The notes under the pieces: generated by a model
The model's input: the letters and a program-made list of their open reading frames with translations, nothing else
Told to the model about the DNA's origin: nothing
The model's database searches: none
In this document: positions 13,170 through 16,585 of the stretch, piece by piece
Layout: the number at the start of each line of letters is the position of its first letter
How positions within the stretch are numbered: the first letter of the stretch is position 1
Virus record (IMG/VR): IMGVR_UViG_3300044630_001740
Location: 1-22,957 of that record
Origin: a virus
Reading direction: 5' to 3' (one strand)
DNA length: 22,957 nt
Translations under genes and position numbers: made by a program

Positions 13170-13366
13170 GCGAAATAGAAAAGTATAGACATTGGTTGCT
13201 TTGTATTGCTAGGTTAGCCAAGCTAAAACATTATCACGGATTTGATATAAACTACAAGGATTGTGGGTTTAATGACTTTTGTAACAAGCCAAATGGACAC
13301 GGTGAAACCGAGTTAGAACGTAGCGTAAAACTATTTAGCAATGAAGTAAAACAGATATTTGCATGA
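13166..13366 (+). CDS. Hypothetical protein, 66 residues
   Basis: No family recognised. The protein is small and soluble, rich in aromatics and Cys (three cysteines: LLCIARLAK, KDCGFNDF, FCNKPNG), with a C-terminal charged helix. It overlaps both neighbours by ATGA junctions, so it is made with the 12828 gene and the glycosyltransferase genes. Coding potential rests on the coupled position and on a composition like its neighbours. Function unknown. Confidence 0.55.
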   Translation: MSEIEKYRHWLLCIARLAKLKHYHGFDINYKDCGFNDFCNKPNGHGETELERSVKLFSNEVKQIFA

Positions 13367-14004
13367 AGAAAACAATAGTTACCCGAAGCGCAAACGATAA
13401 ACTTTACAACCTATCAAAATCATTATGGCGTGATGACAATACCTTTGTAAGGTTGCAACAATTCACAGGCTTTCATGGTGCGCTGACTTATCTGCTTCAC
13501 ATTCTCGAAAACTACAACGGCATAATCGTAAACGCTGACGAAGATTTCTTTGTTACCAATGAGAACTTAATTGACCAAGTAATTGCTGACATGATTAAGA
13601 ATGATTTTGCGTATTGTGGTGTTCCAGATAAAGGAATTATATCGCACCGTGATAAGTCTTTCTTCCACGTCAATCCGTTCTTTAATGTATTTAATGTGGA
13701 CATCATTAAAACTAAGTTGCCAAAATTTGACAACTCAAAAGTTTATGACTACGCAAACCAGTGCGAAAAGAATGGCAATGTAGATGAGCCGTTTGCAGGG
13801 TTATTTTATTGGCTACATTTGAACTTCAAACACGCTAACTTCACCAAGATAACTTCAACAGATGGCACAAGTACGGTGATAAATATAAATGACAAACCGA
13901 TTGGCATCCATTCATGGTATAGTCGTGAGTATGGCAAGGACGTGAAGCAGACCGAGCGAATTGATAAGTGCCTAGAGTGGGCAATAATTAACCGAAATCA
14001 ATGA
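13363..14004 (+). CDS. Putative glycosyltransferase (GT-A type)
   Basis: 213 residues, no signal peptide or membrane segment. A hydrophobic strand (GIIVNADEDFFV, residues 53-64) places an Asp-x-Glu-Asp cluster (D59, E60, D61) where GT-A enzymes have their metal-binding DxD. It is followed by the acceptor-side helix (NENLIDQVIADMI) and by HVNPFFNVFNVDIIK, seen in several phage and capsule sugar transferases. A C-terminal HSWYSREYGKD would suit donor or metal binding by its His. It is the first of three consecutive sugar-transfer-like genes, joined by ATGA overlaps. The likely job is adding sugars to virion proteins or to host surface glycans. The GT-A call is by motif; donor, acceptor and family number cannot be read. 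Confidence 0.5.
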   Translation: MKKTIVTRSANDKLYNLSKSLWRDDNTFVRLQQFTGFHGALTYLLHILENYNGIIVNADEDFFVTNENLIDQVIADMIKNDFAYCGVPDKGIISHRDKSFFHVNPFFNVFNVDIIKTKLPKFDNSKVYDYANQCEKNGNVDEPFAGLFYWLHLNFKHANFTKITSTDGTSTVININDKPIGIHSWYSREYGKDVKQTERIDKCLEWAIINRNQ

Positions 14005-14609
14005 AGTTAATAGTACCATATCGAAATAGACTTGAACACCTTAAACAATTTGTAGAACATTACAAAGGGTTTGACATTTTAGTAGTCGAACAAGCGAATA
14101 ACGAGTTATTTAATCGTGGTAAATTGCTCAATATAGGCTTTAATGAGTGCAATGATAAAACGGTTTGCTTTCATGATGTGGATTTATTAGCCGAAAGCCT
14201 AGCGCATTACAAGCAACCTATTGATGGAGCGGTTCACTTCAGCGGTTTATGTGAGCAGTTCAATTACAAAGTACCTTACGATACTTGTTTTGGTGGCGTA
14301 ACGGCTTTTAATGCCGAAAGTTTTTTGAAGTGCAATGGATTTTCAAATAACTATTGGGGTTGGGGTGGCGAAGATGATGACTTATATACCCGAACAAAGC
14401 TAAACAACATCCGTACTAAATTCGAGTTACACAGATACAAGTCTTTGAAACACGAAAAACAACCCATTACAAGCGAATATAAGGCGAATAAAGAGCGATT
14501 GAATAGAACACAGCACACATGGGCGTTTGACGGCTTAAACAGCCTTAGATACAAGATAGTGGAACGTGGCGATATTTGTGGAGTGGAATTAATTAAAGTA
14601 GATTTGTAA
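14001..14609 (+). CDS. Beta-1,4-galactosyltransferase-like glycosyltransferase (GT7)
   Basis: 202 residues, close to a minimal catalytic domain with no membrane anchor. The motif series matches the animal beta4GalT family in order: VPYRNR (5-10), VVEQ (28-31), FNRGKLLNIGF (37-47), HDVDLL (58-63, metal-binding DVD), FGGVTAFN (97-104), NGFSNNYWGWGGEDDDLY (112-129), then H151 in the position of the second metal ligand, and DGLNSLRY (177-184). The known reaction is transfer of Gal (or GalNAc) from UDP-sugar to GlcNAc-type acceptors with Mn. The residue before FGG, which sets Gal versus GalNAc donor choice (Tyr289 in bovine enzyme), is Cys96 here. It overlaps the upstream gene by ATGA. Family assignment is strong; substrate is inference. 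Confidence 0.85.
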   Translation: MKLIVPYRNRLEHLKQFVEHYKGFDILVVEQANNELFNRGKLLNIGFNECNDKTVCFHDVDLLAESLAHYKQPIDGAVHFSGLCEQFNYKVPYDTCFGGVTAFNAESFLKCNGFSNNYWGWGGEDDDLYTRTKLNNIRTKFELHRYKSLKHEKQPITSEYKANKERLNRTQHTWAFDGLNSLRYKIVERGDICGVELIKVDL

Positions 14610-14625
14610 ACAATTAAATATAAAT

Positions 14626-14961
14626 ATGATACCTCAAAAATTTAAACTAAAAAAAGACGTTGGTTCTATCGTATTCCGAGCAGGAACGCAAATTGTTTCT
14701 ATCACTAAAGAAACGCAAATCAGCGAAGAACTTTACAATTTATGCTGCAAGTTTGGCAAGTCGCATTGCTTTGACATTATGGGCGAAGAAAAGGGTCAAA
14801 AAAAAAACCAATTAGCCTCCCAGTTCCCAGCGTCTTTATCAACCTTGAACGAAGTGTTGACAGACGAGAGCGATTTACCGTTAGTGCCAAACAAGAGGCT
14901 AGAGGATGTTTCTATTCCACAGCCAAAGAAAAGGGGAAGACCCTTCAAGTCGAAAGACTAA
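14626..14961 (+). CDS. Hypothetical protein with AT-hook-like C-terminus; upstream part of a frameshift fusion
   Basis: 111 residues in its own frame. The N-terminal domain (residues 1-55: KFKLKKDVGSIVFRAGTQI, ELYNLCCKFGKSHCFDI) looks like a small beta-rich domain with three cysteines. After a run of ten A (residues about 58-61) the frame continues through a Ser/Leu/Pro-rich linker to PKKRGRPFKSKD, an AT-hook-like motif with core GRP. The last 50 codons overlap a family 25 glycosyltransferase in the -1 frame. Thus one start may make two proteins: this one, or a 275-residue fusion with the enzyme. Function of the N-terminal domain is unknown. Some chance exists that the AT-hook-like frame is only an accidental extension, with the fusion the sole product. 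Confidence 0.6.
   Translation: MIPQKFKLKKDVGSIVFRAGTQIVSITKETQISEELYNLCCKFGKSHCFDIMGEEKGQKKNQLASQFPASLSTLNEVLTDESDLPLVPNKRLEDVSIPQPKKRGRPFKSKD
14798..14807 (+). other. A10 slippery run, candidate -1 frameshift site
   Basis: Ten A residues read CAA AAA AAA AAC in the upstream frame, giving canonical slippery heptamers A_AAA_AAA (14799-14805) and A_AAA_AAC (14802-14808). A -1 slip continues as CCA ATT AGC into the glycosyltransferase. RNA polymerase slippage on the run could have the same effect. A long hairpin begins 22 bases after the heptamer, farther than the usual 5-9. Confidence 0.7.
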
Positions 14962-15452
14962 TTGCCGTTGATGGCAAAGAAATAGTTTCACCGATTGCAG
15001 GTGTAACAAATAATGAATATGCTTGTATTCAAAGCCACTTGAACGCTATTAAACTAGCTAAAGAAAGAGGTTATGAGTGCATCGCTATTTTCGAGGATGA
15101 CATAACTTTCGTAAAAGATTTTAAGCCTAAGTTTGAAAAGTATTTAAACCAGTTACCAAAAGATTGGCATATACTTTATTTAGGCGGTTCGTTTGGGCGT
15201 AATCCTTTTTATTTTAATCAATACTTTACACAGCAAAATCAAACGTGGGGAGCGTTTGCGTACATCGTACACAAGAGAGCGTACAACAATTTAATAGAAA
15301 TCCTTTCGTGTCCTAAAAAAATAGTTGATGGTCACTATATTGACTATCAAAAAGTGCACCTTTGCATTAAGCCAAACGAACGGTTAGTGATACATCCAAA
15401 AGGGTTTAGCACTATCAAAGAAATCGAGGTAAATTATAAAGGCATACAATGA
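14808..15452 (+). CDS. Family 25 (LPS-type) glycosyltransferase domain without its own start codon
   Basis: Read in the -1 frame, the domain begins VPSVFINLERSVDRRERF, the typical N-terminal strand and arginine motif of family 25. It continues LIAVDGKE, then NNEYACIQSHLNAIKLAKERG, then IAIFEDDITF (metal-binding EDD), DWHILYLGG and GAFAYIVHKRAYNNLIE, all in the family's order. The frame is open only from 14775, after a TGA at 14772-14774, and has no ATG, GTG or TTG before the first ATG at 15039. That ATG lies beyond the donor-binding N-terminus, in HLNAIKLAK, and would give a truncated protein. So a shift at A10 from the upstream gene is the likely way to make it: about 275 residues in total. 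The stop overlaps the portal start (ATGA). Enzyme donor and acceptor are unknown. Confidence 0.75.
   Translation, partial: PISLPVPSVFINLERSVDRRERFTVSAKQEARGCFYSTAKEKGKTLQVERLIAVDGKEIVSPIAGVTNNEYACIQSHLNAIKLAKERGYECIAIFEDDITFVKDFKPKFEKYLNQLPKDWHILYLGGSFGRNPFYFNQYFTQQNQTWGAFAYIVHKRAYNNLIEILSCPKKIVDGHYIDYQKVHLCIKPNERLVIHPKGFSTIKEIEVNYKGIQ
14831..14866 (+). other. Candidate RNA hairpin downstream of A10
   Basis: Nested arms: CGTCT (14831-14835)/AGACG (14862-14866), TCAAC (14839-14843)/GTTGA (14856-14860), and CTT (14844-14846)/AAG (14852-14854), loop GAACG. Together 13 pairs with one internal loop and one bulge. It could stimulate frameshifting, though the distance is long. The pairing was found by eye and no energy was computed. 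Confidence 0.4.
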
Positions 15453-16585
15453 GCAAACATACACGAACATTCAAAAACATTTTGCCAGTCACTACTGAAA
15501 AGAAAGGTGATGGATATTTTCGTTATGGATGGAATGACAATTTGCCTTTAGAATTAATTGAGGCAATCAACAATAGTGGCGTAGCGAAGAAAGCCGCAAA
15601 GAAATATGCGGAGTATATTCAAGCGGATGGTTTTGTTTCACCAGTTGCTTCAAGTTTCAAAGTAAACTCAAAGCAAACAGCAGATAAGTTTGTTGGAATA
15701 TTTGCGACTTCGTGGTCGTATTTTAATGCGGTTGTTATCCATGTTTCAAGACTTGGGAATGGTAGAGTTGGAAAATCGGAGGTGATGCCGTTGCAGAAAT
15801 TTAGACGTGGAATAAATGGCACTTGGTTTTATAACCCGACAATCCAAACGGATAAATACAGACGAGATGCGTGGGTTGAGTTGCAAGACTTTCAGGGCGA
15901 AGTAGCTACATTTGAAGCGATGGATATAAATGTCAATCACTTTGGTGGGCGTGGCGAGATACTATACGTTTACAATGGCAATCCGTTTGATAGTGGGCAT
16001 TATGGACTTCCCGATTATTTAGCGGCATTTGAAGATTTGAAAACGTCAAGTGAGTTGAGTAAAATGGATTATGAAGCCGTATTGAATGGCTTTGTTTTGG
16101 GCGGTATCATGACGTTTAGCGGAGTAAATGAAACAACCGAAGGCGAAGATGGATTAACAGACCGTCAGCGTGTAGAAGAAGCAATGACGCAGTTCACAGG
16201 CTTACAGAAGAATAAAGATGGATTGACTTCACGTTTTGGAGTTTTGGCACACTTTGTAGAAACACCCGAACAAGCACCAACGTACACAGCAACAGACCCG
16301 AAGCCAATACTAGAAGCGTCAAACACGAAGCGTGATATAATCGAGCGTTCAATATGCCGTTTATTTGGCGTTCATCCAGTGTTATTAGGTTATAGCGAAG
16401 CCGCAGTTTTAGGAAACACAAATGCAATAGAACAAGCACGAAAAGAATTAAGAGAAGCCGTTAAACCAGTGCAGGGGTTAATTCAAGAAACAATGGCTAC
16501 AATGTACGGCAGTAGTATAGATTGGACTTTGAGCGAGTATGGTATTGTTAACACTCAAATAAATATGCCAAATGTTCCCGAATAA
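15449..16585 (+). CDS. Portal protein
   Basis: 378 residues. It forms the dodecameric ring at the head vertex through which DNA is packaged and leaves. It matches phage portals of this host group in order: an N-terminal section with DGYFRYGWNDNLPLELIEAI, a helical wing with KKAAKKYAEYIQADGF, a central beta section with NVNHFGGRGEILYVYNGNPF and YGLPDYLAAFEDLKTSSELSKMD, and the stem/crown ending with DIIERSICRLFGVHPVLLGYSEAAVLGN. The I-x-R-x-I-C-R-L-F-G-V-H-P-V-L-L-G stretch is the hallmark. It is short for portals (often 400-500 residues), mainly at the C-terminus. It is separated from the terminase by about 14.6 kb and follows directly after the family 25 enzyme, overlapping it by four bases. 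Confidence 0.9.
   Translation: MSKHTRTFKNILPVTTEKKGDGYFRYGWNDNLPLELIEAINNSGVAKKAAKKYAEYIQADGFVSPVASSFKVNSKQTADKFVGIFATSWSYFNAVVIHVSRLGNGRVGKSEVMPLQKFRRGINGTWFYNPTIQTDKYRRDAWVELQDFQGEVATFEAMDINVNHFGGRGEILYVYNGNPFDSGHYGLPDYLAAFEDLKTSSELSKMDYEAVLNGFVLGGIMTFSGVNETTEGEDGLTDRQRVEEAMTQFTGLQKNKDGLTSRFGVLAHFVETPEQAPTYTATDPKPILEASNTKRDIIERSICRLFGVHPVLLGYSEAAVLGNTNAIEQARKELREAVKPVQGLIQETMATMYGSSIDWTLSEYGIVNTQINMPNVPE

Follow-up and report, generated by a model that had tools for sequence, protein, structure and literature searches.

Most of what is known of programmed frameshifting in tailed phages concerns tail chaperones. In tail assembly chaperones of the lambda G/GT type, a programmed slip within the structural gene cluster joins two overlapping frames, and the short and long products share their N-terminus. 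Here we describe a locus of similar form in the virus record IMGVR_UViG_3300044630_001740, of which the full 22,957-nt stretch was analyzed (hereafter the window; all coordinates refer to it, and all features given lie on the plus strand). At this locus a family 25 glycosyltransferase (GT25) domain without a start codon of its own lies in the -1 frame relative to a small upstream gene, here called gene A, and we propose, with a probability of about 0.87 and on the basis of sequence comparison, that the enzyme arises from gene A through a -1 frame transition.

Compared with the lambda G/GT type, the long product here carries a GT25 enzyme, the gene adjoins the portal gene, and about 150 nt of the overlap show true dual coding; the gene is located between a gene of the GT7 family and the portal gene, and is not part of a pair of chaperone genes before a tape measure gene. 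A second related system is dnaX, in which frameshifting or transcriptional slippage at an A-rich heptamer or an A9-A10 run likewise gives two products from one gene. The classic dnaX shift leads to a shorter product, whereas at the present locus a whole catalytic domain is added, and neither a conserved stem-loop nor a conserved Shine-Dalgarno sequence was found at the site. In the orfA/orfB arrangement of insertion sequence (IS) elements, a shift at an A run also adds a catalytic domain to a small upstream protein, but the product is the transposase of a mobile element rather than a phage glycosyltransferase. The nearest precedent found for a phage enzyme is the reverse transcriptase of the Quimbyvirus diversity-generating retroelement (DGR), predicted from two frameshifts (PMC8008677); it is likewise a phage enzyme predicted to need frameshifting, but a different enzyme in a different arrangement, with no small protein of a head cluster fused to it. 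A search of open-access papers, a coverage that subscription journals largely fall outside, gave no case of a frameshifted glycosyltransferase. The -1 transition proposed here is a known kind of event with an unusual product.

A GT25 domain without a start codon in the -1 frame of gene A

Gene A (14626-14961; ATG at 14626, TAA at 14959-14961) occupies the upstream (0) frame and encodes 111 residues, of which residues 1-55 form a small N-terminal domain that is followed by a basic, AT-hook-like tail ending in KKRGRPFKSKD. The GT25 frame, at -1 relative to gene A, is open from 14775 to a TGA at 15450-15452 and overlaps gene A by about 150 nt. Within it the glycosyltransferase domain (14805-15452, about 215 residues) matches Pfam PF01755 with an E value of 5.6e-12 and 46.4 bits, passing the curated cut-off of 24, and the corresponding proteins of the other lineages described below score 49.5-61.2 bits. 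The motifs INLERS.DRR, AVDG and FEDD are conserved in all lineages in the GT25 alignment, in keeping with the INLERS.DRR, AVDG and EDD-type motifs shared by the family, and procollagen galactosyltransferase 1 is the solved chain nearest to the domain in sequence (E 5e-7). The open reading frames (ORFs) and the PF01755 match thus confirm a first-pass annotation of this DNA, which had placed a GT25 without a start in the -1 frame of the preceding gene.

A TGA at 14772-14774 closes the -1 frame upstream of the proposed slip site, so that GT25 cannot be reached from any upstream start. Downstream of this stop, ATG, GTG and TTG are absent from the GT25 frame of the window between 14775 and 15038, as the first-pass annotation had stated, although the codon at 15039, given there as ATG, proved to be TTG. 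This first potential start lies after INLERS.DRR and AVDG, again as claimed, and initiation there would therefore give a truncated enzyme. The proposed slip site itself, an A10 run at 14798-14807, contains the two in-frame slippery heptamers that had been reported for it, A_AAA_AAA (14799-14805) and A_AAA_AAC (14802-14808).

Conservation of the A run and of the frame relation in four lineages

The locus was compared in 27 sequences from 26 records of uncultured phages, which fall into four diverged lineages: the window group, L040/L041, L056-L060, and L094-L098 with L140. The last three were recruited by wider scans using the portal protein, the GT7-type protein, GT25 and gene A, and every gene A locus found falls within the four lineages. 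The window is joined by 13 close IMG/VR loci from 12 records, which align to it without an indel apart from contig ends, while in alignments the other three lineages share 55-62% identity with it in GT25 and 39-43% in gene A. A search for the portal protein in cultivated phages and cellular genomes gave no relatives, and a search for gene A in cultivated phages gave merely weak, chance-level matches inside a helicase. One contig of the set, IMGVR_UViG_3300034061_002014 (L007, L012), carries a different version of the locus at each end, a pattern that suggests that the assembly joined two strains.

The -1 relation of gene A and GT25 is kept in all four lineages, and an A9 or A10 run, itself free of indels, is present at the homologous place in all 27 sequences; the first-pass annotation had suggested a comparison of homologues for the run and the two frames as a check. 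Each of the 27 also contains an in-frame slippery heptamer, A_AAA_AAA or A_AAA_AAG, although the codons of gene A at the run differ between the four types (CAA AAA AAA AAC or AGC; GAA AAA AAA AAT; ATC/GTC AAA AAA AAA AGC/GAC; TTA AAA AAA AAG). In the window group, the window and L004 have A10 at this place and all others have A9 and then G; with no indels between them, run length has changed through substitution only. From the stop that closes it up to the INLER motif, the GT25 frame has no ATG, GTG or TTG in 26 of the 27 sequences. In L040/L041 the first A of the run is part of this TGA, and the GT25 frame must consequently be entered at the run or after it; in L094-L098 the TGA ends 3 nt before the run. 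In both cases entry is thus confined to the vicinity of the run or to positions after it. Distant phage GT25 proteins (L141-L148, 26-32% identity) start with an ATG of their own and lack any run of at least 8 nearby.

Exactly two A or T runs of at least 9 occur in the window, the A10 run and a T10 run considered below, and in the examined stretches of the relatives nearly every run of at least 9 is located at the gene A site. Two such runs are not above the number in shuffled sequence, and it is their position and conservation that count.

Dual coding of the overlap

Judged from the allele substitution pattern, and from between-lineage indels that are multiples of three, the stretch at 14808-14961 is true dual coding, with both frames read and constrained. 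In the window group, variable sites outside the overlap were found largely on the third codon positions of the frame concerned (29 of 38 in the part coding for gene A only, 63 of 80 in the part coding for GT25 only), and those in the overlap were spread 3/8/9 over the codon positions. Nearly all overlap alleles (21 of 22) are silent in at least one frame, against 45% by chance (P 7e-7); since the counts are of alleles and not of independent events, this and the following P values are guides only. Synonymous change per possible change fell about 3-fold in the gene A frame, from 0.34 to 0.12 in the overlap, and about 2-fold in the GT25 frame, from 0.24 to 0.10. Alleles silent in the gene A frame only made up 10 of 22 in the overlap and 2 of 84 in the GT25-only part (P 1e-6), and those silent in the GT25 frame only made up 9 of 22 in the overlap and 1 of 47 in the gene A-only part (P 7e-5). 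This pattern indicates that both proteins are constrained and that the tail of gene A is more than a shadow of GT25; in the alignment the tail ends in KKxGRPxKSK in all four lineages (window 14926-14958). When gene A was recoded synonymously, the GT25 frame stayed open across the overlap in 37 of 20000 recodings.

A stretch of about 24 nt at 14838-14861 (ATCAACCTTGAACGAAGTGTTGAC) is nearly invariant in the alignment of the four lineages and stands out in this from its flanks, although the need to encode both INLERSADR and STLNEVPT may alone be enough to explain it. An Rfam search gave no match.

The gene A product and its genomic context

The N-terminal domain of the gene A product was modelled with moderate confidence (pLDDT about 72-86) as a small beta-alpha domain, followed by an unstructured tail. 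A fold search with this domain gave no significant match in the PDB; the viral proteins that it returned, uncharacterised phage proteins and a DUF7443 protein, matched weakly. Pfam and PHROGs searches with gene A returned nothing significant, and the match of the tail to Pfam AT_hook was likewise not significant.

The locus belongs to a head gene cluster, with the portal gene (15449-16585; Pfam Phage_portal, E 3.6e-11) immediately downstream, in a 4-nt overlap of its ATG with the GT25 stop. Directly upstream of gene A, a GT7-type galactosyltransferase is encoded at 14001-14609 (Pfam Glyco_transf_7C, E 5.1e-25), and the order GT7, gene A/GT25, portal is common to all four lineages. A possible third glycosyltransferase, with a DED motif and no family match itself, is encoded at 13363-14004; its homologue in L094 has a weak GT2 match (E 0.0077) that falls below the cut-off. 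Positions 13363-14609 of the window thus hold two glycosyltransferase-like genes in tandem before gene A, one of the GT7 family and one unnamed. For a terminase fragment the closest match is in Riemerella phages (48%) and others are in Flavobacterium and Bacteroides phages, which makes a host from the Bacteroidota likely.

The T10 run at 1215-1224 is proposed as a second -1 slip site, joining an ORF at 817-1263 to an ORF at 1209-1499. A T9 or T10 run is kept in 18 of 18 sequences from all four lineages (the window and L099-L115), and in six records (L108-L113) the second frame has no ATG, GTG or TTG; from these features the site is probably a second -1 frame transition. The ORF pair (817-1499) is located just 3' of the terminase gene and is alike in form to the tail-chaperone arrangement; as it has no match to a family of known function, that name is not claimed for it.

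Alternative explanations for the two frames

We infer that GT25 is expressed as a fusion because no alternative start is conserved, and several observations weigh against this view. One sequence, L060, has an in-frame TTG upstream of the run and is the sole exception to the absence of an enzyme start at this place in homologues. A downstream stem-loop was indicated in the window alone (z about -2 to -3) and not in the relatives, the consensus fold was empty, and the Shine-Dalgarno-like AAAGGG upstream of the site in the window is absent in the other lineages; with no conserved 3' structure or Shine-Dalgarno-like stimulator, the efficiency of slipping may be low. The AlphaFold model of the GT25 part is poor (mean pLDDT 40), and the domain boundary therefore rests on sequence. 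Finally, an ATT or ATC codon is found 24 nt before INLER in three of the four lineages, and internal initiation at this non-AUG codon within gene A (near 14811) would allow a nearly complete domain to be translated alone. We consider such initiation improbable, because the L056-L060 lineage has GTT or TTA in its place, which disfavors independent initiation from ATT or ATC, and because the conservation of the A9/A10 run would be left unexplained; ATT and ATC starts are also very rare in bacteria. An assembly error or phase variation, by which the true run, or that of part of the population, would have 8 or 11 A and form one continuous gene, deserves mention since homopolymers mutate, are error-prone and are known to phase-vary. 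A run length joining the frames was found in none of the 27 sequences (26 records), however, A9 and A10 differ in the window group by substitution alone, and a permanently fused gene would not show the protein constraint seen in the gene A tail, which leaves this explanation very unlikely. The sequencing error that the first-pass annotation had named as a way to undo its reading fails to account for the frames, given independent assemblies without an indel in the run. Hardly credible at all is a decayed gene that has lost its start and its expression: the missing start codon would fit, but the frame is open, the motifs are conserved across lineages at 55-62% identity, and the substitution pattern contradicts decay, with 68 of 84 alleles synonymous in the GT25-only part. 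Overall, the interpretation of the first-pass annotation is supported by the sequence comparisons.

The ribosome and RNA polymerase are both prone to slip on such runs, and either could bring about the proposed -1 transition. A -1 slip by the ribosome at A_AAA_AAA is the favored route, to which we give roughly even odds. As a variant of the same frame transition, with a chance somewhat short of even, RNA polymerase would lengthen the A9/A10 run by a single A, or the T9/T10 run by a single U, and the transcript would be translated normally. In line with polymerase slippage, run length is at least 9 throughout at both sites, when a ribosomal heptamer needs just 7, and the threshold for such slippage is about nine in many bacteria (PMC1088944); conservation of a 3' stimulator is lacking, and transcriptional slippage is the route presumed for dnaX genes with A9-A10 (PMC3711429). 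On the other hand, Lys-Lys coding in both frames can account for part of the run length, and the direction is -1 in every sequence. A constant -1 direction has been taken as favoring ribosomal shifting (PMC3711429), an argument that is weak at this locus because dual coding locks the direction.

Proposed mechanism and implications

Under the proposed frame transition, most readings of gene A would yield the 111-residue small protein with its basic tail, and a fraction, shifting frame by -1 at the A9/A10 run, would yield a 275-residue fusion of gene A residues 1-60 with the complete GT25 domain. The first-pass annotation had predicted this combination of 60 residues and a complete domain, but had assigned to GT25 alone the length of about 275 residues that belongs to the whole fusion. 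Its junction, GQKK-PISLP, was one residue short: a slip at A_AAA_AAA or an inserted A would give GQKKK-PISLP, and a slip at A_AAA_AAC would give GQKKN-PISLP. Candidate marker peptides of the expressed locus are GQKKKPISLPVPSVF or GQKKNPISLPVPSVF.

Its likely role would be to equip a minor, fixed proportion of the small protein with a sugar transferase, and the enzyme would be held at the partner of that protein while the particle assembles. The tethered enzyme could then modify a virion or cell-surface glycan, together with the products of the two upstream glycosyltransferase-like genes. Anchoring of GT25 on the small-protein partner, with action on virion or cell-surface glycans, is a plausible role for the fusion. 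More tentatively, and we regard this as rather unlikely, recoding may set a minority of enzyme-bearing copies such that GT25 becomes part of the assembling particle, or docks on it, and adds sugars to it in place.

As a conserved case, the proposed fusion of a complete sugar-transferase domain with a small protein of the head cluster would extend the set of phage proteins that arise by recoding. Gene callers that depend on start codons would miss the enzyme or truncate it, starting at the TTG at 15039, past the N-terminal motifs. Recoding at this locus would let a phage hold the ratio of plain to enzyme-bearing protein constant, an idea open to testing, and, if the docked enzyme is real, the sugar transferase would be tethered to the virion at a dose that recoding sets.
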